Shown here piece after piece: positions 461 through 43,519 of a stretch of 64,000 nt of DNA (position 1 is the first letter of the stretch; every line of letters begins with the position of its first letter). A model generated the notes under the pieces. That model ran no database searches. It saw only the letters and a list, made by a program, of their open reading frames with translations, and was not told the origin of the DNA. The stretch is taken from assembly GCF_040054535.1 (NCBI RefSeq), contig NC_090795.1, positions 6,361,501 through 6,425,500 of the forward strand, in the 5' to 3' direction. The translations under genes and the position numbers were made by a program. This stretch comes from Antennarius striatus. Taxonomy: Eukaryota > Chordata > Actinopteri > Lophiiformes > Antennariidae.

Positions 461-3400
461 TTACAGTTTGTGCTCCTCAATAACTACTCCAGCACTGTGT
501 CCACATAACATAGCTCCATTCACTGGTTTCCTAAAGTCAAAAAACATTTTAAAAAAAATTTAAATTAAGTGTTTTAAACTATTTTAAATCATGATTAATC
601 ACAGCCAATAATTTTCATTAATTAAATGAAATGAAATGAAATGAAATGAAATGAAATGAAATGAAATGAAATTAAATTAAATTAAACACTGATATCCAAC
701 TCACTTCAGCTCAGCATGGTCTTGAAGTTCAACATTAAGGGTTTCAGGCAGAAGTAAACAAAGAATTCCAGCAAAAATGGGGATGGTGCCATATATCACC
801 ATGGGGACTGCATAATGGAACATCTCCATGAGCCAGACTAGTGGAGCAAGGATGCCCGCAACACGAGCACACATGGAGTTTAGGCCCATGCCATTGTTCC
901 TGAAAGAACACATGACGGATAGTATATTATAATAGAAAAACAGGTCAAATATGTTTACTGGAAGAAGACAATAAGTAGGATGACACCTGTATTGAAACAA
1001 ACTGCTTTTATCTAAAACATGACTTTAAGATTTTGTCTTGTTTTTGAGTAATCATGTTCCAGCTAAACACCAACTGCAAATGAGTAAAAAATCTATATCT
1101 TCAGAGAAAAAAAATACTTTGACCAAAATTTTATGAAATTGTCTTGAGGAGATGCAAAGAACTTATTTTACCTTAAACTGGTTGGGTATAATTCTGCACT
1201 ATAAACATAGGCAGCAGTGAATGAGGCAGTGGCACAAAATTTCCCCAGTACTGCTATGGTTGTTGTTAGTGCTGGAAGATCTGATGGATAAATAATTTAT
1301 TTCAAAATTATGTACATAATTTGATGATAATGAACTACAGCAAATGTTTCAGATCATAAAAAATGCACAGGTGATTCTGAATACCTTTTGGGATAGCAAG
1401 GACCATAAGGCAAGAAACACCCATAAAAACTTCGAAGCCTGCTTGGGATATTCTTCTTCCCAAATATTGAAGTAAAACCAAACAGATCAGGTTTGCAGGA
1501 ATTTCCACTAAACCAAAGATGAACTGTGTGAGGTAGATATTGAGGCCAAAACTGCTAACATTGAGACTCAGTCCATAATACACAAGACTTGACGCAAACC
1601 TGGAAACACAGATGAGGAGACATATTCAGGTTTCATTAAATTTATAGAGCTGTATATTTTTGACATAGAAATGCACTAGTAATGGTTTATTACGTCCAAA
1701 ATACACAAGACTTGATGCAAACCTGGGATCACAAGAAGAAAGACATGTTCCATTTACTTTTTAACCGCATGGACTCTGAACACAGCTAAAACATTACATA
1801 TCACTGATGAATATTATTGATGTATATTGTCTAAAGTGATTGACAGTAAGAGAGAAAATGTCACACCAGTTAAATCCCAAAATGAAGGATCGTTTTCTCA
1901 GATACGGTATTTTGAAGATGTCCAATATGTTTCTGCTCTCTGGTGAATTTTCTAACTCCAGCTGAACAGGTGAAGAAAATGTTAGAAATTAGAAAATTAA
2001 AAAACAGGTTTAATGCAATTATCAGCCAAAGTATGTTTAATGTAGCTCACATTGTCCAGGCTATCTTCTTGCATTGTATTTCCATTCACCCTGGCTGCCC
2101 TTTGAAGTACTTTTTGTGCTTCTTCCTTCCTACCCTGGGTAATGAGCCAGCGGGCTGATTCTGGGAGGAACCTTTTGTAAAAAAAAATGAAAAGGTTAAA
2201 ACTGATTAATGAATGGATAATAAATATTAAACGAATGTTTGACTAAAGTTTTTGTGAGTTGTACTTCATTGATTGTCAAGTATCATGATGGATAAAATTG
2301 CTGACCAGAAAAATGCTCCCAGGAGAAGGACAAGAGGGCTGAAGAGCACAAGCTGCAGGATCCTCCAGTTCGGAATTAAATATGAAATTCCGGCTAATAT
2401 CATCAACCCAACAGAATAGGAGATCATGAGGAGCATTGTACAAAAAGCAGCCCTTGAGGGATTATTCCATTCTATACCTGAAAGACAAATGAATGTAGCC
2501 CACTCATGATTTTAAACACTGGATTGATGTTGAATATCATTCACAATGGTAAATGTCCTGCAAATCATAAGTATATGCTGAGTGCTTACATTTTTCACAA
2601 ACATAGATTTGTCAGATTTGTAATAGTTTTTTTCCCAATTTGTAGGCAGCCTTTTGAAAAGAAAACTGGGAGGACTGGGAGAGAAATGCCACATTCAATT
2701 CATGTGGGATTTAATATGTGGACAGGAAACATACAATAGCTGTAAATTGGTGACTCTGTCTTGAAAAATCCTTTATTGGTTCCCTGTAGGGGAAATTATT
2801 TTTCCACTCTTGTTATTAGTACTCATCACACACGTACAGATGTATGGTACAGGCATGAAGCTGTGATTGTTATCCATCTATTATCTTTCTCTACTAATTC
2901 CTGAGTTGGGTCACAAAGAGCTGGAGTCTATCAAATGATAGCAAAAACAACAATAATAGCAATAATGATCCCAGTATGTATAAAGAAATAACTTACCCAG
3001 GACATTTAAAGTCAGAAAGATGGGAATTCCTGTAACCCCAGTGAAAAATCTGAAAACTATATAAAAATAAATGTTGGGTGAGAAAGCAATGGCCAGACTA
3101 GACAATAGTTCCAAAAGGAGTGACAGGAGGATCGCAATGCGTCGACCAAACCTAAGATGAAACAAGAAATTCTTCAAATTCATGCAACCAGATCCTTATC
3201 ATTATTGTTATTATTGTTATCATTTTGTTTTTTCTTAACTCTCTAATGTCTCTTTACAATAAAAGCATGTGAATGTGTGACATTTCATACCTGTCTGAAA
3301 TTGCGCCAAACACCAGCGATCCTACGAGCACACCTGCCATGTAGATGGACTGTGATACCTCGACCAAGCTACTCTTATCGCAAACCACATTAAACTAAAG

Positions 3401-3856
3401 AGAAAAGAATGTCAAAACAAGAGAGATAAATACATCAACCTGTCTAATAAATGGGACCTAGGAACATTGGAATTAGTTTACCTCTGTTACAAATGTGGAA
3501 GCACCTTCAGGTGCTTCATAGTCCAATCCATCTGTGCACTCAGTTGTACTGTTAATTCCATATGCTTCAATGGTTTCCAAATCCAAATCCACAGGTGTGA
3601 ACATTTTACAGCTTTCAAAACTTCCATCTTCATTCACTGGGAGGGTGAGATTTTTCTGTTCCTCCTCTGTCAGGTTGGGTCCATGCTCCAAAATCCAGTC
3701 AGTTTTGCAGTGATGAGGGAAGCTCATACCAACAAATACCTGACCCAACGTAACAAAAGCACAAAACACGGGCGGGATGCATGATACAATTAACAACCGC
3801 TTCTGAAACAGACCAAACTCCCCAATCTCCTTTAGGACTTGTCCAAAGCTGCTCAT
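461..3856 (-). CDS. SLC22 transporter, slc22a13-like, gene A
   Basis: Predicted 12-pass plasma-membrane organic anion transporter (major facilitator superfamily). Ten coding exons in transcript order: 3482-3856, 3291-3394, 2997-3151, 2306-2477, 2051-2171, 1867-1961, 1385-1599, 1172-1280, 705-899, 461-530; 536 aa, all joined in frame at GT/AG sites. Exon 1 carries TM1 and the large extracellular loop with Cys50, Cys83 and Cys107 and N-glycosylation sites at N61, N69 and N102. MFS motif A (SDRFGRR, about 158-164) and LPESARWL at the exon 4/5 junction are clear. The start is the Met of MSSFGQVL, shared with the paralogues; an in-frame Met 11 codons upstream is not conserved. Odd points: two loop tryptophans conserved in the other copies are Leu91 and Leu111, and Glu replaces Gly at 106. 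TM8 has Asn377 where typical OATs have Lys/Arg; TM11 keeps Arg461. Family assignment is firm; the substrate is unknown. Confidence 0.9.
632..690. repeat. (AAATG)n microsatellite
   Basis: Pentamer array in intron 9 of gene A, grading into AAATT units. Confidence 0.95.
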
Positions 3857-3960
3857 TTTGCAGCTGAATTTGTGGTAGTTTCTCCTCAAAGTGCAGAATG
3901 AGATGTAGATGGATCCACTTATAAGTCTTACACTGTCAATGGATAAATGTGATTTTGCTT

Positions 3961-5561: not shown

Positions 5562-5563
<2 letters not shown>

Positions 5564-5616
<53 letters not shown>
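5564..5616. repeat. (TG)n microsatellite
   Basis: About 26 TG units in the A/B spacer, followed by imperfect TGCG units. Confidence 0.95.
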
Positions 5617-5777: not shown

Positions 5778-8001
5778 TTAATTTTCATGCTCTTCAATTA
5801 TTAGAACAGATCCTTGTCTGTTCAACTCCAATACATTCATCTTTTCCCTACAAAAAAAAACCCAGAAAAAAGTATTAAAATGATAAAGTAATGTGGTTAG
5901 TTATTTTCAAAAATATTTAGATGCTTTTTTTCTAAATAAATAGTTAATATTCCACTGACTTCATCTCAGCGTGATCTTCAAGTTCAACATTGAGGGTTTC
6001 AGGCAGTAGTAAACAAAGCCCTCCAGCAACGATGGGGATGATGCCATATACCAGCATTGGGATGGTGTCATGGAATACATCCAAAAGCCTGACTAGCGGC
6101 GCAAGGACGCCCGCCACACGAGCACACATGGAATTTAGTCCAACACCATTGTTCCTGGAAGGACAAACTATAGATAACTTACAGCCATTATAAAAAAAAA
6201 TTAAATTATATATGTTGAGGAAAAGACAGTAATCTCAGTAAGATTCTGACATGTTCTTTTCAAATTTCTACATAAAAACCAATAAAGTAAACAAAAATAA
6301 ATATCATTAGTTAAAAGTATAATTTCCAGATTAACCAATCAGTTTTCAACATTTCATTTTAATCATTGTGATCAGAGGGGATGGTCTTTGTGACTTTACC
6401 TCACAACAGTTGGGTATAATTCTGCGCTGTAAACATAAGCAATGTTGAAAGAGGCAGTGGAACCAAAATTACCCAGTACCGCTATGGTTGTTATCACCAC
6501 TGGAAGATCTGATGGGTAAACAATACATGTATTTGTATCTGTCAGAAAAACAACAAAATGACAACTTTAGTAAATTATAAAAAAATATCCTAAATATTGT
6601 TTAAGAATTACTTTTTGGGATGGCAAGGATTATGAGGCAAGTAACACCCCCAAAGATGAGAAAACCTGCTTGAGATAATCTTCTTCCCAATCTCTGAATA
6701 AGAACCCAACCAGTGAAGTTTGCAGGAAATTCAACAACACCAAAGACGAACTGTGTGAGGTAGATATTCACGCCAAAGCTGCCAACATTGAGACCCAGTC
6801 CATAATAGAGAAGACTTGATGCAAACCTGGTATACGAAGAGAAGCAACCTTATTTTTATTACTATGCCCTTTAAGCACTTTTTCACATTATTGATGAATA
6901 GTATTGATGTATGTCAAATATAGTCATTCACAGTGAAAAAGAAAAAGTCATCGACATATAATTTAAAGCAGACGCACCAGATACAACTCATTATGACAGT
7001 TCGTTTTCTCAGATATGGTATTCTAAAGATGTCCAATATGTTTCTTCTTTTAATTGAATCCTCCATCTCTAGCTGAACAGGTAAGAAAAATATGCATATA
7101 TCAAACTACATGGAACTTCATTTATTAGTCAAAGGGTTTTTGATACAGCTCACCTTGTCTAGAAGATCTTCTGGCATTGTCCTCCCATTCACCTGGGCAG
7201 CCCTCTGCAGCACTTTTAGTGCCTCTTCCTTCCTGCCCTGGGTAATGAGCCAGCGAGCTGATTCTGGGAGGAAACTATTGGAACACACATTCTTGATAAG
7301 AAACGTTTGGTCTCCAAGAAATGTCCTTGTGAAATTTATGTGAAGGACCTTTGAGTATGACAATTGATTATGTTGCTAACCAGTAAAACACTCCCAGGAC
7401 AAGGACAAGGGGGCTGAAGAGCACAAGCTGCATGATCCTCCAGTTCCGAATTGAATATGCGATGCCAGACAACACCAACAGCCCCACAGAATAGAATGTC
7501 ATGAGGAGGGCTGTGCAAGTTGCAGCTCTCGAGGGAACCGTCCATTCTATAGCTGAAAAAGAGATGCGACTTACACACCTACTTACCCTTCCATGACCTT
7601 TCGTGGACAGGCCAAAGAAGGGAGTTCATCCTACAAGGGCAAATATTCAGAACTAATCAAGCATCAGTGACAATAAAGACACTGATTAGATAAGACACAA
7701 TGTGAAGAGAAAGTGGGATTGATGCATGATTGCAAAATGACTTGCAGAGGAAGTACAATTAACTAAAATGCCTGCTGTGAAACTTGCCTGTTTGCATAGA
7801 AGGGAATAAGCTGTGGATCTAGAGATCCACAATCTAGAGATTAGCCACAAGCAGCTAATAATGGCAAGGCTTAATTTCCATGAGAGACTTCCCTTAGTGA
7901 TTTCTTTCTCAATTAATTCATGACAAATGGGATTTAATTTCCAGATAAGCAGAAGAAGCAGTAGAAAATGAATTATTGAATAATGCATGCATGAATGAAT
8001 G

Positions 8002-8032
<31 letters not shown>

Positions 8033-10054
8033 GAATCAATCAATTAATCAATGAGAGGCACATAACAATACAACATGTATATACCAGAGTAAGAATGTGT
8101 CAATGAAACATCATCTCAAGTAGAAGGCTGACATCAAAAATATTAGTAAAAAACAACCTAAAGTGGACCTACCCAGTACAGATAACATTATCATAATGGC
8201 AGAACTCGAGAACCCACAGAAGAATTTGAGAACTATATAAACATAAACGTTGGGTGAGAAAGCAACGGCCACACCAAACAACACTTGGAGGAGGAGTGAC
8301 AGCAAGATCCCACAACGTCGACCAAATCTGAAATGAAAGAATAATATGTCTCTATGTCGCACAATGTCAATTCAGATCTCTGGTTTCCTCACATCTTACA
8401 TTTTTGTCATAGCAACATTAATATTATTATTAACTCACCGACTGCCAATGATGTCAATATAGACGTCAAAATAGACAATATAGACAATAGACGTCATTCT
8501 TAATTATGAACAGTTGGATGTTAGTATTCATTTAATATAAAAACAGTACCCAACTTATGAACACAATGGGTTCCGATAACCTACTTGTAAGCTGAACTGT
8601 TCAAAAGTTGTTACATATTAAACTCCAATATTCAGTTGCAAAAACTGGGCGAAATGAGGGGGATGAGTGTTGGGAATGTGCGTACGGAGCACTGCCCCTT
8701 GGCGGGGATTGACAGGGAAACTACATATATAACGACTTACGAACAATTCAGCGTACGAACAGCCTCTCTGAACCTATTGTGTTCATAAGTTGTCTGTATA
8801 TGTCACACTAGTTCAGGGAGAAACAGTGTCGTGATCATGAGAAAAAACGACAGAGCTCATGGAAAAGACGAATAAATGGAGGTTCGAATCACATCCTCTT
8901 CAATGCAACTCCTGGACCCCAGAAACCTGTTATACAGCTAACAAGATTCATTCTAAGTGTGATAGCACAAAAAGAAGAAATCATACCTTTTTATCAAATG
9001 TAGATATTGAACTTATGTAGTTATATACTCATAAATAAATTACTTTACCATCCAAATCCCTTTCTCAGTGTTGTTTTTTACTACAGAATCAAAAAAGGTA
9101 CAAACAAAAAAGGTACAGCATCCTCTTTCTTTTGGTAGCTTTGATGTTTCCATTCTCAGAGAACACAATATTCTGTGGGTCTTATAAGATAAATCAAAAG
9201 ACTCTAAAACTGCTGGCAGTGTGGGGATTGTTGCAGTGAAAATGGCTGGCAGTGAGTTAATATACATTATTATGGGTTACATTCCATACACTTTTAATAG
9301 CATTAACAAATGTAACATTAATAGCTCTATTGTGAAGGTAGAAACTACCCAACTTGTGACAAATGATTTGATGTGAGACTGCTCATACCTATCAGAAATT
9401 GTCCCAAACAGCAGAACTCCAAAGAAAATACCGGCCATGTAGATGGACTGTGACACCTCAATGAAACTACTCTTGTCACAAACCAGATCAAACTGATAAT
9501 AGGAAAGAAAGAGAAAAGACAGAGGTGATTAATAAAAGAAAGGAAGGTGAGGAGACAGGGAGAAAAATAAATAAATAAAACCAAGACCCCAAAATGATGG
9601 CCCAAAAGTCAGGACTACGGGACCCTGACCAGCCAACAACTAGAACACTATCTGACAATTACATGATTTATTGAACTACCTCTGTCAGCATACTGGAACC
9701 ACCTTTGGGAGCCTCATAGTCCCATCCATCTGTGCATCCAGTTGTACTGTTAATTCCAAAACGTTCAATGGTTTCCAGATTCCAATCCACAGGTGTGAAC
9801 ATTTTACAGCTTTCAAAATTTCCATCTTCGTTCACTGGGAGGGTGAGATTTTTCTGTTCCTCCTCTGTCAGGTTGGGTCCATGCTGCAAAATCCAGTCAG
9901 TGTTGCAGTGATGAGGGAAGCTCTTACCAATAAACACTTGACTAATTGTATCAAATGGGGAAAATATTCCAGGGATGCATATTGCTATCACTATCAGTTT
10001 CTGAAATAGGCCGAACTCCCCAACTGCCTTAAGGATCGGGCCGAAGCGGCTCAT
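5778..10054 (-). CDS. SLC22 transporter, slc22a13-like, gene B
   Basis: Second member of the array, 536 aa. Exons in transcript order: 9680-10054, 9389-9492, 8173-8327, 7381-7552, 7154-7274, 6978-7072, 6612-6826, 6400-6508, 5960-6154, 5778-5847. No internal stop was seen and every exon length matches gene A. It starts at MSRFGPIL; loop cysteines and three N-glycosylation sites are kept. Exon 7 ends at a plain A-GTAAT donor, which turns the usual Lys-Asp-Leu-Pro into Lys-Asn-Leu-Pro, and exon 9 uses a GTCAGT donor. TM8 has Asn377, TM11 keeps Arg461. Exon 9 reads FHDTIPMLVYG, nearer to gene G ([11 protein letters not shown]) than to genes A and C-F (FHYA-PMVIYG), so B may be an early branch of the expansion. 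The C-terminus ends IIEEHEN, while C-F end LILEEHK plus Leu or Cys. Intron 2 (8328-9388) contains a MITE. Confidence 0.9.
7991..8052. repeat. (AATC)n microsatellite
   Basis: Tetramer array in intron 3 of gene B. Confidence 0.95.
8544..8796. mobile_element. MITE with long inverted repeats in intron 2 of gene B
   Basis: The left arm CAACTTATGAACACAATGGG and the reverse complement of the right arm (CAACTTATGAACACAATAGG) pair almost perfectly over about 25 bp. The TA-flanked right end suggests a Tc1/mariner superfamily origin. A related right arm lies near 34.88-34.96 kb. Confidence 0.65.
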
Positions 10055-12514: not shown

Positions 12515-13496
12515 CTACAGTTTGTGCTCTTCAAGAATTAGCTTGACAGGGTTCCTGTTCCATCCGTTCTTCTCCTTTCGGCTTTTCCCATCCGTTGGTT
12601 TCCTAAAATCAAAAAAACAAAAGAAAGTACAGTATTAACGCAATAGTTAATTTTTGTTTAGTGCACATATAACAATTCAAAGGGTTTGACTACAATATAC
12701 AGTATATATTTTTATCTTCAGTATGGATGTTCAAGACGGCATGGTCAACACTACTAATACAGTATTGAAGGACACTAGTAAAAATTCAACTGCTGACCTG
12801 GTGAAGTCAATACTAAACACCAGTAGCATAATCAGAGGAATGACGATGTCCCTGTCCTTTGACAATTAATACAATAATATAAAAAAGGGATACCTAGAAG
12901 AATTTTAATCACCCAGTTGTACTTATAATTTATCCTGATTGTCCACACTGAGTAATTATCACACACTACCACTCATTACTTGTACTTTTTAAATATCTAT
13001 AATCAACTCACATCAGCTCTGCATGGTCTTGAAGTTCAACATTGAGAGTTTCAGGCAAGAGCAGACAAAGAGCCCCAGCAATAATAGGGATGATGCCATA
13101 TATCACCATGGGGATGGCATAATGGAAGACCTCTAGGAGCCAGATTAGTGGGGCAACAATGCCCGCCACATTAGCACACATGGAGTTTAGGCCCACACCT
13201 TTCTGCCTGGAATAAAATACAATGGATAGAAAACATTCAATATATAATTGTCATGTATATGAGAAATAGAAAACAGAGATTTGGTCCTGCAGAGTCAAAT
13301 CACATCAAATAACTTTATTTATAATCCATTTGTCATGCAAGAAAATGCAACGCAAAGTGGTTTACAGAAATAAAAACAAGAAACACAATTGCAGAAAGAA
13401 AAATTATCACAAATAAATCCCCTCACTAACACCCTCCTTCAAGACACACGCAGGCACGCATGCATGAACACACACACACGCACGCACACACGCACA

Positions 13497-13572
<76 letters not shown>

Positions 13573-16500
13573 ATCACACACAATACAGTGAAATGCCGTG
13601 GCATGGAACCGAGAATCAAGGCCACCTTTGGGGACATCCACACTAGGAGGAACCACAGGCCGTGCCTACGGGGGGACTAACATCCAGGCCCCGGACTCTG
13701 AGGCAGTGAAATCCCAAACATAAAGGACGAACCCCCAGCCAGTTGGGCCATAGGAACCCAAGGACCCCCATCAGCAGCCCCCAGTGTGGAGAACCCCCCC
13801 CCCTTAGGAAATACTGGAGTAAAAGCTAAAGACTACAAGCGTAAAATAGGACTAAAAGAATAATTATAATGAAATAGATATAGTACAAATATAAAATATG
13901 CAAGATTAGAAAATGAAATATAATAGATACAATACCAGTAATAAAATAAATACAGAAGACTTTTTAAGATTAACATCATCTTAAGAAGGGCTTGAAATTT
14001 TAGTGAAAGGCCTGAATAAAAAGGTGTGTCTGTGTGTGGTAATTGGATGCAAAACTAGCATTTTTGGAAAGGGAATGGCAGGTGCAATCAGAAGCAGGTA
14101 GGGTCATTCTTGCATGAATGAAAGTGAACAAAATGGAATGGATGCATGTTGGTGAGCAGTATAAATCCGTGTTTAATTGAAAAACTGAAGGAGCTTTAGT
14201 AATAGATGAGTGGAATTTGTTCTGATGAGGAGAGAGTGGTTAACAAACAAATGAGGAAGGATATGCGGAGAGTGTAGGCTCTGACAGCGTAAAAAAGGGA
14301 GGCCCTGGCTTGTCTGCGGCAGTGGTGGGTGAAAGTATGGATTGATGGGCAGGAAACCTTTTTCTCAAACACCCAAGAGAGGGGACTTTGGAGCCTGTAG
14401 GCACGCTGAATGAGGAAGAGTCCTGTGGTAGAGTTGGTCAATTTACTGTGGGCATACTCTACCCACTCAAGCTGCTGGGACCAGAAAAAGAGGTGAGACC
14501 CTAACACAAGGAACCATCTCCATTTCCTGTTCATCCCCTCCATTTGCCCGTTCTACTGTGGGTGGACACCTGATGATAGACTTACAGTGGTCCATGCAGA
14601 CTTGAATAAGTCCTTCCAGAAGATTGAGGTCAACTGCAGTTCTCATGGAATCACTTTGACAGGGAAGCTATGCAACATGTAGCAAAACTCGTTCAGTAGT
14701 CTCCTTGGTCAAGGGGAGGATAGGCAGAGGTACAAATTGGGCCAACTTGCTAAACCTGCACACCACGGTGAGAATGACAGTGTGGCCATTGGACAGTGGC
14801 AGTCTGGTGACAAAGTGTCAAGAGGAGCTCAGGCAAGGGCTGGAGAAGGCTAGTAGGGATCCAATGGGAGGGCTGAAGACAGGGTAGGCACCAAGAACTC
14901 ACGAGTGTCCTCCTCCAGCATGGGCCATCAGAACCTCCACAGAATCACATCCTTGCAATGGTGAATTTCATGGTGACAGCTACGTCTGGAGTCGTGTGCT
15001 CACTGGAGAGGACCATAGTACAGAGCAGCTGGAATTAATAGATGTCTGGAGTTCAGACACTGGGTCTTCGATGATGCTCCAGGGCAGCTTTAACTCCTTG
15101 ATGTTTTAGGAGAGAGGAGGGACCGGGTAGGAGAGCAGGATGGTCATGTAGAGGCTGGCAGAGGTTTCCTCACCCTGAAGGAATTGCCAGAACAGAGCAT
15201 CAGACTTCATGTTTTGGGATCCAGGATACTAAGAGAGAGAAAAGTTGAAATGGGTGAGAAAGAGGGACAAACAGCTCTGATGGGAATTCAACCTTTTGGC
15301 AAATTGGATATACTCGAAGTTTTGGTCAGATGAAGGTTGGCTGGTTGGTCCCCTCGAAACAAATGCACAAGAGCTCTTCATTTCCAATGTCCTATTTACT
15401 TTTGTCCAGAGCTAGTTATCGAGGAGAAGAACGTACAGGAGTGAAGCATTTAATCCTTTGCAGCCCCAGTAAGAGGACTGCTCACACTCTCATGTAGGAA
15501 GTATCCTCCTCAATCATGAGTTGCTCCTCCAGGTCAAGCATTTAGAAGATGGGAGCAGATGTGGATCAAGCCTTGAGGGACTGGAAAAGGTTGTCAGCAG
15601 CAGAATTGGAATCAGAAAGAGGCAGGGTCAGAACCTGGAAGGCAATCAAAACCCTGGAAAGTGTTGCACAAATGACAAATAGAAATCTGGCAGGCCATGG
15701 GTGTTGAGGACCAGTATAAATTGGGGGTTTAATGAAAAGCATTGGCAGTAGTAGGAACAGGTGAGCGGAGTTTATTCTGATAAGGAGTGAGTGGCTGACA
15801 AATAGGTGAGGAGGGGCAGGTGGAGGGTACTGGCTGTGATAATTTAGACCTTACTCGATGAATAATTAAATCGATTGTGCATTATCTGACCATAAAGGTG
15901 TAATATGTAAGAGTAACAGCAGAAATACAGCGAACACACAGAGTAAATACATCGACATTCACGAAAGTATAATCTATGCTTTTTTTTTAACCCCGATATA
16001 ATAAGCAGCAGAAGAAAAAATGACATTACCTTACAACAGTTGGGTACAATTCTGCACTGTAAACAAAGGCGATGTTGAAAGAGGCGGTAGAGCAAAATTT
16101 ACCGAGTACTGCTATGGTCGTTGTCACCACTGGAAGATCTGTTGGATTGATAATATATTTCAGAAACATGTGAAACAACAATAAATTATTGCAAATGATA
16201 TTCCTTCAGCAATACCTGTTGGAATAGCAAGGATGACAAGGCAAGCAATGCCTGCAAAAACTTCGAAGCCTGCTTGGGATATTCTCCTTCCCAAATACTG
16301 AATTAGAACCAAACTGCTAAAGTTTGCAGGCATTTCAATAACACCAAAGGTGAACTGTGTGAGGTAGATATTGAGGCCAAAATTGCCAACATTGATGCTC
16401 AGCCCATAATACACAAGACTTGACGCAAACCTGGAAACACAGATGAGGAGACATATTCAGGTTTCATTAAATTTATAGTGATGTATGCTTCTGACACAGA

Positions 16501-23606: not shown

Positions 23607-23674
<68 letters not shown>

Positions 23675-28424: not shown

Positions 28425-28508
<84 letters not shown>

Positions 28509-30677: not shown

Positions 30678-33600
30678 CTACAGTTTGTGTTCTTCAAGAA
30701 TTAGGTCAACAGCATCCCTGCTCCACTTAGGTCCATCCGTTGGTTTTCTGAAATCAAAAAAGAAAAGCAACATATTGCCTTAATGCTACTTTTGTTTAAT
30801 GCAAATATCGCAACTAAAATGGTTTGACCACAATATCTTTTGTATCTTCAGCACCGACGTTCAAGACGACATAGTTAACTCTGATAATACAATATCGAAG
30901 GACACTAGTCACCATTCAACTGCTGACCTGGTGAAGTCAGTACTAAACACCAGTGGTATAATTACAGAAATGATGATGTCCCTATCCTTTGACAAATAAT
31001 ACAATTATATAAAACAGTGCTACCAACAAGAATTTTTAATCAACCAGTTGTATTTTGTAATTAATCTTGATTCTCCGCACTGAGTAATTATCACACACTA
31101 CCACTCATTACATGTACTTTTCAAATATCTATAATCAACTCACATCAGCTCTGCATGGTCTTGAAGTTCAACATTGAGAGTTTCAGGCAAGAGCAGACAA
31201 AGAGCCCCAGCAATAATAGGGATGATGCCATATATCACCATGGGGATGGCATAATGGAAGACCTCCAGGAGCCAGATTAGTGGAGCAAGGATGCCGGCCA
31301 CACGAGCACACATGGAGTTTAGGCCCACACCTTTCTGCCTGGAATAAAACATAATGGATAGCAAACAATTAATACATAGTTGTCCTAAATGTGACAATAG
31401 AAAACAATTCAAACAGGGGGAAAGACAACACGTAAACACAGGTGCAAGTATGAAAACAATTCTTGAAATTGCTATCGTTTTAACCATTTCAGACTGAAGT
31501 CATATTATGTCTTACAAGAACACGGGGGAAATGTGCTGACACGGTAAAATGTAGGAGTTGAAATATAAAGAGTGTTCATCTGTATTAGTATACGCATACT
31601 GTACATCAGTGGCAGCTGCTGGTCTGTCAAAGAGGGAAAGCTTATATTGTAAAACGTGTCAATTTATTTACGTATATGTAAAAGCTGCCCTCTGTTCCTG
31701 TTCAAGAAAATTGTCTGGGATTCTGTTTTACCAACAGAGCCTACCAACCTAGTCAACAACATGAATTTGTTCAATGAAACTAGTAAATTTGAACAAATGT
31801 GGAAATTATTTTGAACTGAAACATCAAAATATGATGTATTTTCTCTGCAGTAAGGAATGAAAAGTCATGTCATTTCACCAAGCAAATACCAAGAAATTTG
31901 TTGCCATATTTTCACTTTACTTGTAAAATCCTGCTCTATTCATCGTGCGGATGCCCAGCATCCAGGCCAGCCAAGGCCGGCCCACTGCTCCATTCACCCC
32001 CAGAGACGCATACAGTCACAAGGAAGTAACTGGATACTCTGCTACTCAAGACAAATTCACTGATGCTACGAAAAGATGATAAAATTGAGACTGTCAACTT
32101 AATTGTTTGCATATTAACATGCTCTAACACATTTCTAGTCAATGAAATATGAAGACAATAATACATATTTGACCATTTTATTTTTGAGATTTTAGGGGAA
32201 GCTGAGCTTGTAAATTATGCATGCTTTGTTTATGTAACATATGTGGCAATTGGAAACAAAAACAACACTCTCTGAAAGTGAGTCCATAAATCTTTACTTT
32301 ATTCATCCCCATAGGAAATTTTTTTCCACTCTGAGAGAGGGTGATGGTAGAGCGGCGGGCAGCTCCTTCGTGGTGCGCCCAAGGAGCAAGTTGTTGGGGG
32401 ACTGCCTTGCTGAAGTGCACCTCGGCAGTGCTCCGGATAAATTGAAATGAATTCTGCGTGACTTTCTCCCATTGTAAAATGCACAAAAAAAATTTTTGAA
32501 TAGCTGGTACCGCTACTCCGAAGAATGAAACATACTTGCTGGGGAAGGCAGGATGTTACCCCAAGCTTTGAAAAATGTTTTTGGAAATCTTTAATGTAGT
32601 TTTTGCAAAACCCTCTTAGCAGACCAAAAAATAAATAAATACACATGATAAATATGTGGACATGAATTAAAGCATACTCAAAGCTCTTTTTACTCAATAT
32701 GATCATGATGAGCAGCAGAAGAAAAAGTGATTTTACCTCACAGCAGTTGGGTACAATTCTGCACTATAAACATAGGCGATGCTGAAAGAAGCACTGGCTC
32801 CAAATTTGCCCAGTACTGCTATGATTGTTGTCACCACTGGAAGATCTGAGGGTGAATATTAAATCTCAGAAACATTTGAAATAAACAATAAATTATTGCA
32901 AATGTTATACCTACAACAATACCTTGTGGGATAGCAAGGACCACAAGACAAGCGATTCCCCCAAAAACTTGGAAGCCTGTTTGGGATATTCTCCTTCCCA
33001 AATACTGAATTAGAACCAAACTGGCCAAGTTTGCAGGGATTTCAACAACACCAAAGATGAACTGTGTGAGGTAGATATTGAGGCCAAAACTGCCAACATT
33101 GAGGCTCAGTCCAAAATAAACAATACTTGATGCAAACCTGGAAACACAAATGAGGAGACATGTTCAGGTTTCATTGACTTTATAGTGCTGTATGTTGCTG
33201 ACACAGAAATGCACTAGAAATGGATTACTATGACATGGACAACATAATTAGATAAATGTTATTAGATAGAAAGAAGACAGACCAGTTAAATCCCATTACG
33301 AGGGTTCGTTTTCTCAGATATGGTAGTCTGAAGATGTCCAACATGCTTCTTCTTTCAGGTGTATCCATAATCTCTAACTGAATGGGTAAGGAATATGTTT
33401 CATAAAAAATACACATATCAAACAAGAAAACGTTATTTCTCTGAGAAAATGTGTACAATACTGTTCACCTTGTCCAGCTTATCTTCTGGCATTGTCCTCC
33501 CATTCACCTGGGCTGCCCTCTGAAGCACCTTTAGTGCTTCCTCCTTTCTGCCTTGGGTAAGGAGCCAGCGAGCTGATTCTGGGAGGAAACTATTAAAAAC

Positions 33601-34497
33601 AGGGTAATGATAGTAAATAATTATTAGCCTTTCTGGCAATGTTCAGGTAAATGTACATAATGGAATGTTGTGGTTACAGGGAGAAGAGATCAAGAAGGTG
33701 GAGGATTTTAAGTATTTAGGGTCAACAGTCCAGAGCAATGAAGAGTGTGGAAAAGCGGTGAAGAAGTGTGTACAGGCAGGATGGAACGGGTGGAGAAAAG
33801 TGTCAGTGTGATGTGTGATAGAAGAGTTTCAGCTAAAATAAAAGGAAAGGTGTACAAAACTGTGGTGAGACCAGTGATGTTGTTTGGCCTAGAGACAGTG
33901 TCACTGAGGAAAAGACAGGAGACAGAGCTGGAGGTAGCAGAGATGAAGATGCTGAAGTTCTCTCTGGGAGTGACCAGGAAGGATAGGATCAGGAATGAGT
34001 ACATCAGAGGGACACCACATGTTAGAGGTTTTGGAGATAAAGTCAGAGAGGCCAGACTGAGATGGGTTGGACATGTCCAGAAGAGAGATAGTAAATATAT
34101 TGGAGGAAGACCAAAGAGGAGGTTTATGGATGTAGTAAAAGAGGACATGAAGGTAGTTGGTGTGAGAGAAAAGGATGCAGAAGACAGGGTTAGTTGGAAG
34201 CCACTGATTCGCTATGGCGACCCATGAAGGGAAAAGCTGAGAGTAAAAGAAGTACATAATGAAAAGTCAAAAGTCATGATTGGATATAGAATGCTGACCA
34301 GTAAAACAATACCAGGACAATGACAAGAGGGCTGGCAAGCACAAGCTGCAAGATCCTCCAGTTAGGAACTAAATATGCCATGCCGGACAACACCATCAAC
34401 CCAACAGAATAAGATGTCATGAGGGCTATAGTACAAGAAGCGGCTCTGGATGGATCAGTCCATTCCATTCCTGTGAAACAGATATGTGTTACATATG

Positions 34498-34549
<52 letters not shown>

Positions 34550-36338
34550 TGTATATACACTATAGCCGATAGAATGAACGTACAGTATCACGAGACTACC
34601 TACTAAAAATCAGCGATAGTTGATTTTTGATCTTGAATCCCAAATGCACGAGGGATTACCGTAGTACTTGTTTAGAAAGACAAACAATCATTCATGCACA
34701 CACTTGCACCTATGAGCATTTTGACATGACCAATTCACCTAAACTGGATGTTTTTGGAGGTGGGAGGAAGCTGGGGAACCGATGCATACATGGAGAGAAC
34801 ATACAAACTCTGAACAGAAAAGACTTGGACAGCGACAGCGCGACCCGTTGCGCCACCATGCCTCCTGCAATAATTATTTTATACAAACATACGAACAATT
34901 CAGCTGACAAACAGCATGTTGGAACCAATTGTGTTCGCAGTTTGAGGACTACCTATTATATACTAGTATTTAGTAGTATTATTTGTATGTATGTATGTGT
35001 TTATGTCTGTGTGTGTGTGTGTGTGTGTGTACAAATAATAAAAAATAAACATTCATTTATTCATTCATTCATTTTCTCTAACCACTTCATCCGTGTGTGC
35101 GGTTCGCGGGTAGCTGGAGCCTATCCCAGCTGACTAAGGACATGACGCGGGGCAACCTCAGCGCGCAACGCCAGTGCGCCACGGAGCTAAAAATAAACAT
35201 TAATATTTATTAATACTTTATTATATAATAATAATATTAATAGTAATAATTTGAAAAAGTGGACCTACCCATCACAGACAAATTCATCAAAATGGCAACA
35301 CTTGAAAATCCACAGAAAAATTTGAAAACTGTATAAACATAGATATTGGGTGAGAATGCAACGGCCACACCAAACAACAGCTGGAGGACGAGTGACAGCA
35401 GGATCCCACAACGTCGACCGAACCTATATTGAAGGGAAAAGAAGACCTTTTTCAAATTCATACAGTGATTTCTGGATCTTTCTGTGTTTCTGTCAGGATT
35501 CTCATCTGGACTGTTGCCGGCCTATCTACAAACCCTACCTGTAACTGGACTCAGTTTTGCCTAAATATCGATCTTCGACTGATTCCCTTTCTGAGTAGTG
35601 ATAGTATCTTATATCTGAAAGTATTGATTTTGTCATTTCTTTTACTTTTATTACCCTAACACTATTAACATTTGTTGGTTTTGATAACAATAACGATGAT
35701 GAAGCCAACATGTGTGACATGGGAGTTGATGTGTGATGGTCGATACCTGTCGGAAATTGTCCCAAATATCAGCGCTCCAAAGAAAATACCTGCCATGTAG
35801 ACAGACTGTGTTGCTTGAATCAAGCCATTTTTGTCACAAACCAGATCAAACTGAAAACAGGAAAGAGAAAAATAAATAACTGAAAGACGCTGGAGTGAAC
35901 CCTTATGGACCCTGACAAACTGTCAACTATCAAATCTAATGATCTATGAATAATTTTTTTTACCTCTGTCAGAATGCTGGAACCACTTTTGTGTGTCTCA
36001 TAGTCCCATCCATCTGTGCATCCAGTTGTACTGTTAATTCCATACGCTTCAATAGTTTCTAGATCCCAATCCACAGGTGTGAACATTTTGCAGGTTTCAA
36101 AACTTCCATCCTCGTTCACTGGGAGGGTGAGATTTTTTTGTTCCTCTTCTGTCAGGTTGGGTCCACGCTCCAAAATCCAGTTGGTGTTGCAGTAATGAGG
36201 GAAGCTCATACCTATAAAAACCTGTCCCATCACATCAAACGCGCACAAAATGCTTGGAACACACAATGCAATCATTAACCTTTTTTGAAACGAGCCAAAC
36301 CCCCCAATATCATTAAGGATCTGCTGAAAGCTGCTCAT
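30678..36338 (-). CDS. SLC22 transporter, slc22a13-like, gene F (chimeric)
   Basis: Sixth member, 536 aa. Exons in transcript order: 35964-36338, 35747-35850, 35269-35423, 34299-34470, 33469-33589, 33283-33377, 32923-33137, 32737-32845, 31144-31338, 30678-30747. Exons 9-10, intron 9 and the 3' flank are nearly identical to gene E. Identity stops abruptly about 40 bp into intron 8 (near 31.35 kb), and exons 1-8 are clearly diverged from E (the N-terminus starts [15 protein letters not shown]). The simplest reading is unequal crossing-over or gene conversion that gave F a new 3' end. Intron 4 carries an RTE-like LINE tail with target-site duplication; intron 3 has a TA microsatellite and other repeats. 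The loop reads PHYCNTNW where the paralogues read PHHC(N/K)TDW. TM8 has Asn377, TM11 keeps Arg461. Confidence 0.9.
32285..32450 (-). mobile_element. retroposon fragment in intron 8 of gene F
   Basis: The TTTATTCATCCCCATAGGAA segment and CTTGCTGAAGTGCACCTCGG, the reverse complement of the SINE body seen in D and E, indicate a SINE or LINE tail in minus orientation. No coding content. Confidence 0.45.
33653..34261 (+). mobile_element. 5'-truncated RTE-like LINE in intron 4 of gene F
   Basis: The plus strand encodes the far C-terminus of a LINE reverse transcriptase ([20 protein letters not shown], a LRWVGHV segment, [16 protein letters not shown]), open for 160 codons at 33745-34227. It ends in the GGCGACCC...AAAAGC tail common to this family. 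A 10-bp direct repeat, GTACATAATG, flanks it (33653-33662 and 34252-34261) and looks like a target-site duplication, since the same sequence occurs once at this place in gene C. The insertion is absent from the other copies. Confidence 0.8.
34504..34549. repeat. (TA)n microsatellite, gene F intron 3
   Basis: About 23 TA units. Confidence 0.95.
34715..35190. repeat. dispersed fish repeat pieces in intron 3 of gene F
   Basis: Contains the CCAATTCACCTAAACTGGAT...GGAGAACATACAAACT segment, a MITE-like GAACCAATTGTGTTCG arm, a TG array near 35.01 kb and the GCTGGAGCCTATCCCAGCTG segment. A related piece is at 19000-19090. Confidence 0.55.
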
Positions 36339-36439
36339 ATTGATATGCCACTAAGTTTCCTGTGCTTTCTCATCAACGTGAAGAGTGAGATATAAATGAA
36401 CTGAAAGTCTGAACTGAATGTATAAATGTGATCTCGTAA

Positions 36440-36452
36440 ATCAACCTTTAAC
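36440..36452 (-). promoter_or_regulatory. HNF1-like site upstream of gene F
   Basis: Minus-strand GTTAAAGGTTGAT, about 102 bp before the ATG. It is one of the weakest matches in the set but lies at the shared position. Confidence 0.35.
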
Positions 36453-36729
36453 CAAGGACAACCCATTCAGTATTGAAAATACCTTTGGGCCTATGTTGTA
36501 AAAGGAAATAACAGCAATATTTTAATTTTAATATCAGCCATAAAACACCAAGCAAAACAATATAATGAATTATAGGGTAGGGAAAGTGTCAACCTGCAGT
36601 ATTAGTTATCTATTTATTTTGCAGTTTCATCATCATATATAATCTTCTGAAATAAAATAAAAAGCTTGAACAATCTGAGGTTTCTGAATCTGAATACAGT
36701 ACAATGCAAAGCATTTCAGGAAAAGAAAA

Positions 36730-38250
36730 TCAAAAATCATGTTTCAGGGATTTGGCTGAGTGACGGTAAGACAGATTTTTCTTGTCAGTCCATCTGACAA
36801 AAGGTTGTTCTGCCAGAATAACCTTGAGGGTGAGAGGAAGTCTCAGAGCCTTGAAAGAACCCACGCAGATGGAGAGAACATGCCAACTCTGCCGAGAGCG
36901 GGACTCTGACCAGGAACTGCTTTGATGTGAGGCGGTAGTGCTACCCACTGTTCCACCATATTTATGGACTTCTTTTGTTTTATTTCCTATTTTATGAAAT
37001 AAGGTTTCTTTTTGTTTCTTATAATTTGATTGACTTGTTCTCCTTTTTGTGGACTTTTAATGTGGTTATTTCTTCTGTGGTATGACGTGTTCGTGTCTTC
37101 TTTTTTTTGTAATTCGTCACATAATTTTTCGCAAATATTCGACACAGACCTATAAACATAGACATATTTTAACTTGGTAATTCATATTTTACATATTGCT
37201 TGCACATTCAAACTAAGTGCCAGTTTAACAACTCCTTCTTCGAGATTGTTTAAAGTTTCATTCTTTAGCACCTCTGAACACGTCTGTGATATAATATTAC
37301 AGTTTTTTTTATAACAACAAGAAGATTAAATTAGGTCTAATTCTGCTTGCCTGACCTCATTCACCCTGACTGCCCTTTCATTCCTGCTACTTCCTGCTCT
37401 GAGCCAAGAGGCATCATCAAAGAACATGAAGTAAGATTTATATCTTCTATTTACAACCTCTCTGGCAATACTCTGAGGAGGTTACAGCTCATTTTTCTTT
37501 CATTCATTCTTGGCGGATTTCAAAGCTCTTTTGTTCTAATAATTTTATTCACTACAAAAAGGCAATTTTGAGACATACTTTTGTATTTTGTAATTATTCT
37601 ATCTTTATGCAAGTTGACTGCTTACTTTTGGGGAAACCAAAGCATTACAGCACCGTATTTGATTGAAAATTTTGTAAAAACAGATTGGAAGAAGAGGAGC
37701 CTATTTACTGATTCATGGACCAGTTTATGTTACCTTCATTAGGATAACATTTTACATCTTATGCTCACTTGGTTGCAATGCTTCCACATCCACACTAAAT
37801 GCAGATGGGCTGTGAACCCTCAGTTTGAATTACTGTTGTCATGAAACAGAGGGAAAAAGGGAAGTATATTGTCATCCTTTTTGATCCTGCAATGTCTGAT
37901 CATGGGGGTGTTTTTTTTGGATTTTGCTTCATAGTCCCAACCATCTGTATATCCATTTGTATTTTAACCCCACATGCCTCATTTTTTCCACATCCAAGTC
38001 CACATTGGTCAACATCATAGCCCTGATATCACTCAGAAATCCAATCACCTTTATAGTAATGTGGGAATTGTGGACACATGGATTCTGCATTCAGAGAGAC
38101 TTAATTCCAGACCTTCAGTCCCTTGCCACACATATAGCGTCACTTTATATTTTGAATTCTGTACTCCTTCTGAATGGTCCCAATGGCATAGCAAGTATAA
38201 CACCTTCCTTAAGCCTGCAACGATTAATTATTAAGTACTCATAAACTTTA
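36730..38250 (-). pseudogene. eroded slc22a13-like unit between F and G
   Basis: From 36730 to about 37150 the DNA resembles the 3' flank of genes C-E (the GTGACGG-AAGACA block, then the T-rich stretch seen at 12.24-12.44 kb). At about 37931-38090 a minus-strand match to exon 1 remains: the catagtccca-ccatctgt segment and the aaatcca-tca segment with the following ATG-rich stretch, separated by a deletion. A weak exon-5-like patch may lie near 37.36-37.43 kb. No usable reading frame is left. This is probably an old dead copy. Confidence 0.55.
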
Positions 38251-38922: not shown

Positions 38923-41900
38923 TTACATTTTTGTGCTCTTTCCAGTGTTGCTGGAGGATTCCATTTCTGCAGTGTTGTCCTCGATATCTCTGAAATTTAA
39001 AACAGAGCTCATGCATAGAATTGCTTTGCATTTTTTTTAGAATAATGAACTCTGCTGTGACAGGATGCACAAACTCACTTGAGTTTAGTGTGGTCCTGGA
39101 GTTCAACATTAAGGGTTTCTGGCAGCAATAAGCAGAACCCCCCCGCGACAATTGGTATGGAGCCATATATCAGCATGGGAAGGATGTCGTGATAGATGAC
39201 CAGGAGCCTGATAAGTGGAGCGAGGATGCCCGCCACACGAGCAAACACGGAATTTAAGCCTACGCCATTCTGTCTGTCAGTGTAGACAAGCAAACACATA
39301 GAATATAATAATGTTAGACAAGGCATTTTCTACTAAAATTAATCCTAATGACCTGGGCTATGTTTTTCTTCTGGTATGCTACTTACTTTACCTCAGTGCA
39401 GTTGGGTATAATTCTGCAGAATATACATAAACTGATTGGAAACTTGCAGTAGATGCAAATTTTCCCACAACAGCTACGATTGTTACCACAACAGGAAGGT
39501 CTAATGGACAAATGAGAACCAAATTTAAAATGAATATGAAGAACACAATGTAGGCTATGTGGATTCCTCTTATTTTAACAGAGTACCTTTTGGAACTGCA
39601 AGTATGGCAAGACAAGTACAGCCTCCAAAAAGCAGGACCGCTGTTTGATAGATTTTTCTTCCAAAATGCTGCAAAAAAAGCAGACTACCAACACGTGCAG
39701 GGATTTCCACTGCGCCGAAGATAAACTGTGTCAGGTAGATGTTCAGACCAAAATTGCCAACATTCAGACTCAGTCCATAGTACATCAGACTTGTTCCAAA
39801 CCTGACAGGGAGAGTGGAGGAAATACATATACCTTCAATAAAGTTCAAATGAAATAGATGGAGTTTTTCTGTTGGTCAGAATAAATCACTCACCAGGCGG
39901 AGCTCATTATGAGAGCACGTCTCCTCAGATACGATATTCTAAAAATGTCCAAAATGCTTCCTCCTTTAGAAACAGCCTCAACCTCCAGCTGGGCAATGTA
40001 CAAGTGCAGTGCATATTTTTTCAGTTGGAAGGCATTTATTTCAGACCTCTGCTGTGCTTGATGTTTTAAGCAAATAAGGAGCCAACCTTGTCCAGCAGTT
40101 CTTCAGGTACTTTCCTACCATTTACCTTGGCTGCCCTCCGTATCTCCTTTATCGCTTCCTCCTTTCTGCCCTGGGTGAGAAGCCAACGGGCTGACTCTGG
40201 AAGCAACCTGATTGAGATATATCATCACACTCGTGGACTATAATTACAATAAATTCTTTCTTGGCTAAAAAGTAGTTTAAAACTTTAAGCTGAGAGGTTG
40301 CTGACCAGTAAAATATTCCCACCACAAGAACAAGAGGGCTGAAGAGCACTATCTGCAAGGACCTCCAGTTGCGGATCAAATAGGCAACACCAGACAACAC
40401 CATCAGTCCAATAGGGAAAAAGACATGGCACACAATGGTGCACAGAGCAAATTTAGAGGCATCAGACCACTCCCCAGCTGGAAAGAGGGCAGAAATGGTA
40501 TCATTACTAGTAAGATATTTAGAAAAGGGGGTTTTTGTTTGTTGTTGTTTTTTTTAGACATAGGGAATGGCTTTGTACTTTGGTGCTGATCTGGTTTGGG
40601 TTAGGTTTAGGCATAAGGTTATCCCAATCTCCATAATATGTATCATACACTGAAGTCTCAGGTATTGGTAATCCACAGCAGTTAATTTTATGGGTTTTAA
40701 GGAAAATTCACAAGTTGAGAAAACAAATAAGAATGTTAAAGACTCGAACTAACACCAAACTGCAGCTGATGGTGTGCTGATTCGGTGTAAATTTGATGTA
40801 CTTTAGTTTTAATTTGGCCAGCAGTATTCAAAACAAAAACAATAACACTCAAATAGCAAAAGTAGGTACATGAAGAGGTGATTCCAAAGCCCAAACAACT
40901 AACAATTTGGAATGCAGACAACAACACAACAACAGAAGATTCAGTTGTGAACATATAACCTACCTATCACAAAGCTATTCAAAAGGATGCCCGAGGCAGC
41001 GACGCCAGATATAAATTTTAGAGCCATGTAGACATAGACATTGGGCGAGAAACCAGAACAAAAACCAAACACCATTACGACAAAGAGCGACAGCAGAATC
41101 ACAAAGCGTCGTCCGAACCTACAGAAAGAGATCAAATGTTAGGCTTGTAATGAAGAATCAGGCAAATGTTAAAAGTTTCAATTCAGCACTATATTAGATC
41201 AGAGTAGTAAATTGTCATTGAATTTAAGGTAAACAGCAGTTAATGATCATCAGGCTAATGTATGGGGAGTGAATATGTACCTGTCAGCCATCTGCCCCAA
41301 CACCAGTGCTCCCAGCAGAAGGCCTGCCATGTAGATGGACTGGGATGCTTCAATCAGGTTGCTTCTGTCACATACTAGATTGAACTGACAACACAATGTG
41401 GTGAAAGGAGAACAGAAACAAAGATATTACTAAACTAAAAAAACAAAATCAGGACTTTTATTTTCTTCTTGGGTGGGCCTGGACTGGACTTGTTTAAGGT
41501 GGGTTGAAGACATTTCAAGACAATTAGTCTCACTAGGCGTCTTGGTGGTTTCAGTCATTTGTTGTTTCTGCTCCAACTGGACTCACGACCAGTCAGACAG
41601 CACTGAAGAAGCCTCTTGGATGAGAGGTGAAATGTCTTCAATCAACCCAGTGATTCTCAATTATTTTCTGTTACGCCCCCCATAGCAAGAAGAAAACAAT
41701 TTGCGACCCCCCACTCCCCACCGTAACTATGAATAACATCAATTGTCTATAAAATTGTTATAAACGCCCCTCTGCAGAACATTTATCCTTATTAACATTA
41801 AAGAAAACAAAAAAGAAATATAGTTCAATTTATAACAAAGAAGAATTTCTTTAACATTATTTAAGTAAAAAAAAACAACCCTTGTTTAAACTGTAAACAT

Positions 41901-43519
41901 TTTTGACCAACTTATTGCACCATTTGATACTGAAAAATAAAATTAAATAAAATCAGTTAATAATAATAAATTAAAATTCCATTCAGCAACATTAACCAAG
42001 GAGCACAAGATATAAAACACTAACCTACAAAACAAAAAAATGTATTCTGGGGTTTTTTTCTTCTTTCTTTTTTTATCAAAATGAGGCAGTCAGGATTAAT
42101 GACTACAATGAGCTCGTTCTGCAATGATCAGCTTTTCGAAGCGAGGTTTGAAGCATGATACTGAACTCTCAGCTCCTGCTCAATGCTTCAGCTCCTCTGT
42201 TATGGTGGGGGGGGTTTGCAATGAGCAATTTAGTACGCCACCTTATATGATGCTAACAGAGCTCATTGGTCAACGTGACTGGGGGGTGAACTATCTTTAA
42301 GTGATGTCTCAATTTGTTAGGCTTCATGCTGTCCTCTACCAGCATGTTTAGACACCGTAAACACACCAGTCTGTCGTCGCAGTGAAGCCCAGCGCTACAG
42401 ACGCTTCTTCATAGTTCCTTGTCTTAGCTTTCAGGTGACTTGTTTTTGTCTCATTTTTTTCCATCTCTCTCCACCATTCTTTTCATCCCTGTTAAAAAAA
42501 CTTTCATGTTGTCTCTTGAGGGGTTTGTTTACTGCACTTCATATCGCCTTCCCTGCACCATAGAGCTACTACTTTCTGCGCACACCTGACAATGAGATCG
42601 CCACTGCCAACTACTGTAGTGGATGTGCAATTACACTTTATTGTAATACAGCTAAAGAAAGCATGTTCCACAGGGCCACATACCCCCACCTCCGGCATTG
42701 CACAAGAGCACCCCTAGGGGGGCGCGCCACACTATTTGAGAAGCGCTGACCCAATCCAAAGCAAGTCCAGCTGATTCTTTAATGCTCTTCTGGATGACAC
42801 TGAACATGCACCACAACAATGACACCAGGCAAGCGCTATTATTCATTCATTCATTCATTCATTCATTCATTTATTCATCGAGGGACCACACATATACAGG
42901 CACATATAGACAAACACTCACATACGCACACTCAAACCTACAGGCAATTTGGAGTGGTCAATTCATCTAAATTGCAGGTTTTTGAAGATTGGAGACAAGC
43001 AATATAAAAAGTAGTACTGTATATAAAAATAAAAAATGTGTTTTTAGTCAAGCAAATGGTGAATATCATAAAAAATAAAAAAAACTACCATGAGACAGCA
43101 TTAGGTGGAACAGCGTTGACATGTGGGAATACAAAGAAGTTACTCACCTCTGTCACAATGCTGGAGGCGCCTTTAGGTACCTCAAAATCGGATCCATTCG
43201 TACATCCTGTTGTGACATTTATCCCATATGTTTCAATGGTTTCCAGATCCCAATCCACAGGCATGAACATTTTACAGCTTTCATATTTCCCCTCCTTCAT
43301 GGGGATGGTGAGATTTATTTGTTTCTCCTCTGTCAGGTTGGGTGCACTCTCCAATATCCAGTCAGTATTGCAGTGATGAGGGAAGCTCATGCCTATAAAC
43401 AGCTGTCCAATCATATCAAAAGCTGTGAAAAAGTTGGGGATGCATAGTGCAGCCACTAAACACTTCTGAAAAACACCAAACTCCCCCATCTCACTCAGGA
43501 TTTGCCTAAAGTTGCTCAT
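38923..43519 (-). CDS. slc22a13: SLC22 transporter, slc22a13-like, gene G (ancestral type)
   Basis: Seventh member, adjacent to oxsr1; 534 aa. Exons in transcript order: 43148-43519, 41281-41384, 40964-41118, 40306-40477, 40087-40207, 39894-39988, 39587-39801, 39392-39500, 39079-39273, 38923-38989. It is the most divergent copy: exon 1 is one codon shorter and exon 10 is 67 nt, ending in Ser-Thr-Lys-Met, a possible class I PDZ ligand, instead of the EEHKL-type tail. Motif A reads GQMADRFGRR. It alone keeps Arg in TM8 (EIPARVG, residue 376) as in human SLC22A13/OAT10 (VEVPAR), and it has the TM11 Arg460. Position and residues make it the best candidate for the true slc22a13 orthologue; human OAT10 exchanges urate and nicotinate. 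The orthology is inferred from recalled human sequence and gene order, not from a tree. Intron 1 is about 1.76 kb and contains a hAT-like element. Confidence 0.88.
41648..42748. mobile_element. hAT-like non-autonomous element in intron 1 of gene G
   Basis: The ends CAGTGATTCTCAA and (reverse complement) CAGCGCTTCTCAAATAG are related terminal inverted repeats, followed by GCGCCCCC-type sequence on both sides. No transposase ORF lies within. A clear 8-bp target duplication was not found. Confidence 0.55.
42840..42990. repeat. (ATTC)n array and dispersed fish repeat
   Basis: ATTC units lead into a fish repeat with the GGAGTGGTCAATTCATCTAA segment. Related pieces lie at 34.72-34.86, 35.05-35.19 and 36.83-36.96 kb. 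Confidence 0.6.

Follow-up and report, generated by a model that had tools for sequence, protein, structure and literature searches.

The question raised by the oxsr1 locus of Antennarius striatus is how many slc22a13-like genes stand beside oxsr1, and whether these genes encode transporters of the kind known from human OAT10 (SLC22A13). The analyzed stretch, hereafter the window, comprises 64,000 nucleotides of contig NC_090795.1 (G000:C20:6361501-6425500; the genome contains 548,383,777 bases in 42 contigs), and positions are given as window coordinates, with negative values lying to the left of the window. Nine slc22a13-type (OAT10-type) genes were arranged in tandem at this locus. It is likely that the copy closest to oxsr1, designated U7, is OAT10-like, and that the other eight, which harbor asparagine at the position of human R377 (Asn377), have probably ceased to transport urate.

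Organization of the Array

The exons of U3 were read from the sequence, their counterparts in the other units were located with BLASTN, and the exon lengths projected from U3 were checked against splice sites and open frames. The flanking DNA was examined over 90 kb to the left and 30 kb to the right of the window. Seven complete SLC22 genes, numbered U1 at the left end through U7 at the right, were found in the window, all on the minus strand and head to tail, with the first ATG at 43519 (U7) and the last stop at 701 (U1). Each gene consisted of nine coding exons, and all internal acceptors (56/56) and donors (56/56) were AG and GT, respectively. The conceptual proteins were 513-518 aa in length, and none of the seven contained an inner stop. 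The original prediction had assigned identical lengths to exons 2-9; this held in all seven genes for exons 2-8 (104, 155, 172, 121, 95, 215, and 109 nt), but not for exon 9, which extended over 199 nt to the stop in six genes and over 211 nt in U2. Exon 1 was 375 nt long in six genes and 372 nt in U7.

The edge of the window cuts through the array. Two additional intact genes, U0 (-3218..-6745) and Um1 (-10006..-13036), both complete, were located within 13 kb to the left, with AG at 16/16 acceptors and GT at 15/16 donors; intron 1 of Um1 starts with GC (GCAAGC) instead of GT (window coordinate -10381). The seven complete head-to-tail genes that had been predicted were thus confirmed by their splice sites and frames, and the array in fact contains nine intact genes across about 57 kb, with nine of nine frames open. 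TBLASTN searches with U2 and U7 as queries (E-value up to 0.01) detected no SLC22 match beyond Um1 in the rest of the 90 kb to the left or within the 30 kb to the right.

Placement within the SLC22 Family

U3, the only one of the nine that was scanned, matched the Pfam families PF00083 (7.7e-32) and PF07690 (7.6e-26), and its top match in PDB was SLC22A6 (6.1e-106; U3 was again the only query). The array proteins are thus inferred from family membership to be membrane transporters. Four maximum-likelihood trees were constructed and rooted at the midpoint only; the human SLC22A13 (A13), SLC22A14 (A14), URAT1, OCT1, and OCTN2 rows were typed in rather than taken from database records. On contig C11, the models of exons 3, 8, and 9 of locus L055 and of exon 9 of locus L056 did not hold; L055 was left out, and another gene of that contig, C11a, was entered by its first 448 residues. 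The nine copies formed a single group in all four trees (support 100/100 or 100/99). With the typed-in human rows included, the array, a single related gene on contig C18, human A13, and human A14 were grouped at 98/95; in the tree without A14, the array, the C18 gene, and A13 were joined at 96/95; and without any typed-in human row, the array and the C18 gene were separated from OAT1, C11a, and the SLC22 genes on contigs C14 and C19 at 99/96. The slc22a13-like identity that had been proposed for these genes was therefore upheld, as the array joined the SLC22A13/A14 ("Oat-like") subclade (98/95, or 87/92 with C11a), and placement in another SLC22 subfamily was rejected by the trees.

Identity of the array proteins to the typed-in human A13 was 42-46%, the highest among the human rows. 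The 18-residue motif described as specific to this subclade in PMC4633038 (A13 P73-P90) had an aligned, partly similar counterpart in the array, according to an unscored comparison. The same source reports that SLC22A14 first appears in opossum; the fish genes would thus be co-orthologues of A13 and A14 together, not of A13 alone.

A whole-genome search with U3 as the query, in which 84 of 310 candidates were scored, placed the related C18 gene at 365058-368177 (56% identity to U3 in exon 1) and revealed additional SLC22 genes on C14, C19, and C13, as well as a tandem cluster on C11; the other SLC22 genes of this genome therefore number at least those listed here. The C18 gene was sister to the array at 89/85 in the tree without the long A14 branch, as expected for a pair left by genome duplication, and the fork was open when A14 was present. 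The genes on C14 (L052) and C19 (L053) are single SLC22 genes that are 59% identical to each other and join OAT1/URAT1 at just 83/81. The C11 cluster (G000:C11:187310-225197; L055, L056) matched U3 exon 1 in no fewer than five places, distributed over both strands, with 33-35% identity, and looks oat2-like. It was rejected as a second A13 array, since the one member that was placed, C11a, joined OAT1/URAT1 at 99/98.

Residues of the Substrate Pocket

In human OAT1, PMC10643130 describes K382 of transmembrane helix 8 (TM8) as contacting alpha-ketoglutarate and the mutants K382A, R466A, and R466K as non-functional; the arginine equivalent to R466 of TM11 is said there to be present in all OATs. 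The K382 column corresponds to R377 of human OAT10 (the A13 row was typed in, and its R377 agrees with the published numbering). According to PMC6937405, human OAT10 with R377C is almost null for urate, with protein level and localization being little affected, and PMC6937405 and PMC9019507 associate this variant with lower gout risk.

Within the array, arginine (CGT) was present in this column in U7 only (39075..43519, minus strand; 513 aa), whereas the other eight copies contained asparagine (AAC or AAT). Outside the array, the C18 gene contained histidine, and the C14 and C19 genes, as well as human A13 and A14 (typed-in rows), contained arginine. The TM11 column of OAT1 R466 was arginine in eight of the nine copies, for example Arg461 in U1 (701..3856, minus strand; nine coding exons, 514 aa, Asn377). 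In U3 (13008..18606, minus strand; 514 aa, Asn377), Arg461 was replaced by asparagine through a two-base change (AAT vs. CGT), which leaves this copy with no basic residue in the R377 and R466 columns, the two key sites of the pocket. The TM10 lysine (K431 column) was retained in eight copies and replaced by asparagine in U2 (Lys426; 5944..10054, minus strand; nine coding exons, 518 aa, Asn377). Arginine was absent from the R219 column of OAT1 in all nine, but lysine or arginine occurred one residue earlier in every copy, and R219 was therefore not counted as lost. Human A14 (typed-in sequence) also lacks the TM11 arginine, indicating that this residue is not universal in the A13/A14 subclade.

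These comparisons bear on the proposal that the array represents an expansion of urate/nicotinate-type transporters. Such a role is doubtful for most copies, because eight of nine lack Arg377 and R377C is nearly null in human OAT10; the eight Asn377 copies have most likely lost urate transport of the OAT10 kind. The proposal would fit U7, which keeps the arginine and, by comparison with its human and rat relatives, is the likeliest of the nine to be an OAT10-like urate/nicotinate transporter.

The array proteins would be alternating-access carriers with 12 membrane helices and a central pocket through which small organic solutes pass. Asn377 would most simply have been fixed before the eight copies multiplied, and the copies that inherited it would have taken other, perhaps less strongly anionic, solutes; the loss of the TM11 arginine in U3 and of the TM10 lysine in U2 would be additional changes. 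We tentatively suggest that Asn377, once fixed in the common ancestor of the eight, may have converted an OAT10-type anion exchanger into a new class of transporters for neutral, zwitterionic, or cationic metabolites, which then radiated and in which U3 and U2 acquired further specificities, with U7 keeping the old job.

Selective Constraint

Codon analysis was conducted on 513 codons with our own script, which matched the likelihood of IQ-TREE (-7954.843); the selection tests presume one tree, which is violated by the mosaicism described below. The overall ratio of nonsynonymous to synonymous substitution (omega) was 0.371 under M0, and omega was significantly <1 on seven of the nine terminal branches. 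U7 had the lowest omega and was more constrained than the rest (0.244 vs. 0.404; p 0.002) and U1 less constrained (0.546; p 0.037), both among nine branches tested and uncorrected. The omega of 0.88 for U4 could not be distinguished from 1, and the neutral class of M1a comprised about 38% of sites. The array coding sequences are under purifying constraint on every terminal branch whose length permits a decision.

Growth of the Array and Its Relics

Pairwise synonymous divergence (dS) ranged from 0.022 (U4/U5) to 1.24 (Um1/U7), a spread indicating that growth was repeated and did not occur in a single burst. U7 was the earliest branch within the array. U4 (21503..24868, minus strand; 514 aa) was closest to U5 (26294..29714, minus strand; 514 aa), with 97.5% amino acid identity. 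U6 (31140..36338, minus strand; 514 aa) is a mosaic whose exon 9 was nearly identical to those of U4 and U5 (synonymous difference 0.00-0.02) and whose exon 1 was not (0.41). U5 and U6 shared a run of identity over nt 1347-1541, the start of which coincides with the exon 8/9 boundary; this run was reached in 0/1000 permutations. Among 36 pairs, 12 were at or below 10/1000 permutations when all polymorphic sites were used and five when only third positions were used, uncorrected for the number of pairs. It therefore seems that a recent unit of ~4.8 kb had its break in the vicinity of intron 8, yielding chimeric in-frame genes. Growth of the array on C20 would have involved repeated rounds of unequal crossing-over, in at least one of which the breakpoint fell within a gene (near intron 8), as well as gene conversion.

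Intron 8 of U3 (13207-16029) was 2823 bp in length, against 118-1398 bp elsewhere in the array, and contained a long TG repeat; two open reading frames (ORFs) of 94 and 118 aa inside it had no match in Pfam. Seven ORFs of the window that were scanned were without a Pfam match. A 111-bp repeat, possibly a short interspersed element, occurred with 86% identity at 34141-34251 (intron 4 of U6) and at 45288-45398 (the gap between U7 and oxsr1).

The stretches at 19.92-20.46 and 36.7-38.25 kb had been interpreted as remnants of dead units, from which at least nine former units were deduced. The first (19927..20440) was an additional copy of the unit 3' flank, similar to 20983-21481 just past the last exon of U4 (76.7% over 520 columns), and no exon match was found inside 19.93-20.44 kb. 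The segment at 36426..36814 was not a dead unit but the region 5' of U6, which has homologous counterparts in the 5' flanks of U3-U5. Both remnants were thus ruled out as dead units, being mostly flank DNA, except that one of the two includes a piece of a dead gene, an exon-1 relic between U6 and U7 (37925..38015, minus strand), which was 75% identical to exon 1 of U0 (E-value 4e-10) and 79% identical to that of Um1 (E-value 2e-13). Two weaker exon-1 fragments were located outside the window at -9039..-9090 (E-value 4e-10) and -1915..-1989 (E-value 9e-6). The remnants do not show that at least nine units once existed, although nine complete units do exist.

Alternative Explanations

All nine genes could still encode ordinary OAT10-type urate/nicotinate transporters, with the expansion only raising dosage or spreading expression among tissues. 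The full-length frames in all nine, the TM11 arginine retained in eight, the low omega, and the top identity to the typed-in human A13 (42-46%) are consistent with this, but it is unlikely in view of the eight copies that lack Arg377, the near-null effect of R377C on urate in human OAT10, and the further pocket charges missing from U2 and U3; the absence of arginine from the R219 column in all nine also counts against it, although every copy has a basic residue one place earlier. A relaxed birth-and-death array, in which most copies are becoming pseudogenes and are held open by recent duplication and conversion, would account for the exon-1 relics between units, the sizable M1a neutral class, the omega of U1, raised to 0.55 (p 0.037 among nine tested branches), and the indistinct U4. 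It is nevertheless improbable, given that all nine frames have stayed open despite pairwise dS up to 1.24 and that seven of nine terminal branches have omega significantly below 1. The array could also be partly an assembly artefact, with U4 and U5 representing two haplotypes of one gene set in tandem: the spacers upstream of them are 99.7% identical over 1389 bp, and the dS of the genes is only 0.022. We regard this as very improbable, since divergence is uneven (21/1545 coding sites vs. 0.3% in the spacer) and their exon 9 is also found in U6, a pattern that true tandem duplication would produce; such an artefact would, moreover, remove one copy only.

Several points weigh against a U7 of OAT10 type beside eight Asn377 copies that have given up urate. 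Asparagine is neither cysteine nor alanine, and the loss of urate transport is hence not certain. The human A13 row was typed in, the support for the A13/A14 grouping drops to 87/92 once C11a is added to trees that are midpoint-rooted only, and the gene model on C18 has a weak exon 6. The models of the array genes end with exon 9, and their stops sit at a donor-like motif; a shifted donor that would have cost the array its exon 10 was considered and set aside, as comparison with the C18, C14, and C19 genes was unclear. The short branches of U4 and U5 do not separate constraint from neutrality, and the analysis covered the genome sequence of one species. Positive selection was not significant (M1a/M2a p 0.37; M7/M8 p 0.16; M8a/M8 p 0.14); a new function is thus not required, and the dietary or osmoregulatory selection suggested in the original prediction was unsupported. 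On balance, we still favor the reading in which U7 is OAT10-like and the Asn377 copies have probably left urate.

The oxsr1 Neighborhood and Its Counterpart on C18

The location of the array next to oxsr1 was correctly predicted. The oxsr1 gene adjoins U7 on the same strand, and its coding exons, traced with a typed-in human query, follow one another in sequence between 81787 and 47953, with those in the window at 47953..60166 (minus strand; last coding exon 48039-47953) and the earlier ones outside. The kinase part in the window matched OSR1 with 411 bits and SPAK with 396 bits in PDB. Human OXSR1 lies beside SLC22A13 and SLC22A14 on chromosome 3, and the fish-specific expansion proposed for this locus stood insofar as the expansion lies beside oxsr1 and is absent from the human pair. 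XYLB and ACVR2B, which are also neighbors of the human locus, had no match in 184 kb around the array (E-value up to 1), indicating that synteny with human is partial.

Contig C18 carries a second oxsr1 (C18:585547-586997), which is separated by about 220 kb from its slc22a13-like gene. The gene beside the latter carries Xin repeats, and its product is homologous to an ORF to the left of the array, at 43.7% over 391 aa and at 33.4% over 350 aa; both are in the same convergent orientation. The ORF left of the array had no Xin match in Pfam (E-value up to 0.001, first 663 residues; E-value up to 5) and is called Xin-type because its C18 homologue has Xin repeats. Three gene families are therefore paired between C18 and C20, namely oxsr1, slc22a13-like (one vs. 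nine genes), and Xin-type, which suggests that the array descends from one of the two segments left by the teleost genome duplication and was later expanded. The simplest reading is that the paired segments stem from this whole-genome duplication and that growth followed on C20 alone. A second C18 ORF by the Xin-repeat gene (L058:1-2205) matched about -14604..-14470 with 71% identity over 45 aa, a further hint of paired segments. Upstream of the C18 slc22a13-like gene, L057:178-2942 contains extended stretches of short tandem repeats, degenerate in sequence, that are open in several frames.

Comparison with Known Systems

The array would provide a natural mutational series at a human gout locus, consisting of eight sister genes in which R377 is replaced and the coding sequence is constrained; in Japanese carriers, loss of this very residue is protective against gout. 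A comparison of U7 with its eight neighbors would reveal the selectivity that R377 confers on the OAT10 pocket. As a caution, the name "slc22a13" in a fish is by itself no proof of a urate transporter. Among the open-access papers listed by literature searches, none announced a fish slc22a13 array, as judged by titles and the openings of abstracts.

Human SLC22A13 (OAT10/ORCTL3) and SLC22A14 (ORCTL4) resemble the array in their tree group (typed-in rows), in the SLC22 exon pattern, and in sharing the neighbor oxsr1 on the same strand. In contrast, human has two genes and A. striatus nine, and Arg377 of human is asparagine in eight of these nine. Exon 4 of the array is also one residue longer at its end (172 nt) than in the C18, C14, and C19 genes (169 nt). 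In zebrafish, orctl3 (slc22a13, chromosome 24) and orctl4 (slc22a14, chromosome 17) possibly represent the same two post-duplication lineages as C20 and C18. The relation of OAT10 across vertebrates is given as one-to-one in PMC4982206, a rule that is broken by the nine copies in A. striatus. According to PMC4982206 and PMC4633038, the human OAT cluster on chromosome 11 and zebrafish oat2b-e on chromosome 17 are, like the array, cases of one SLC22 subfamily that has grown in tandem in one lineage; these belong to other subfamilies, whereas in A. striatus it is the Oat-like (A13/A14) subclade that has expanded.

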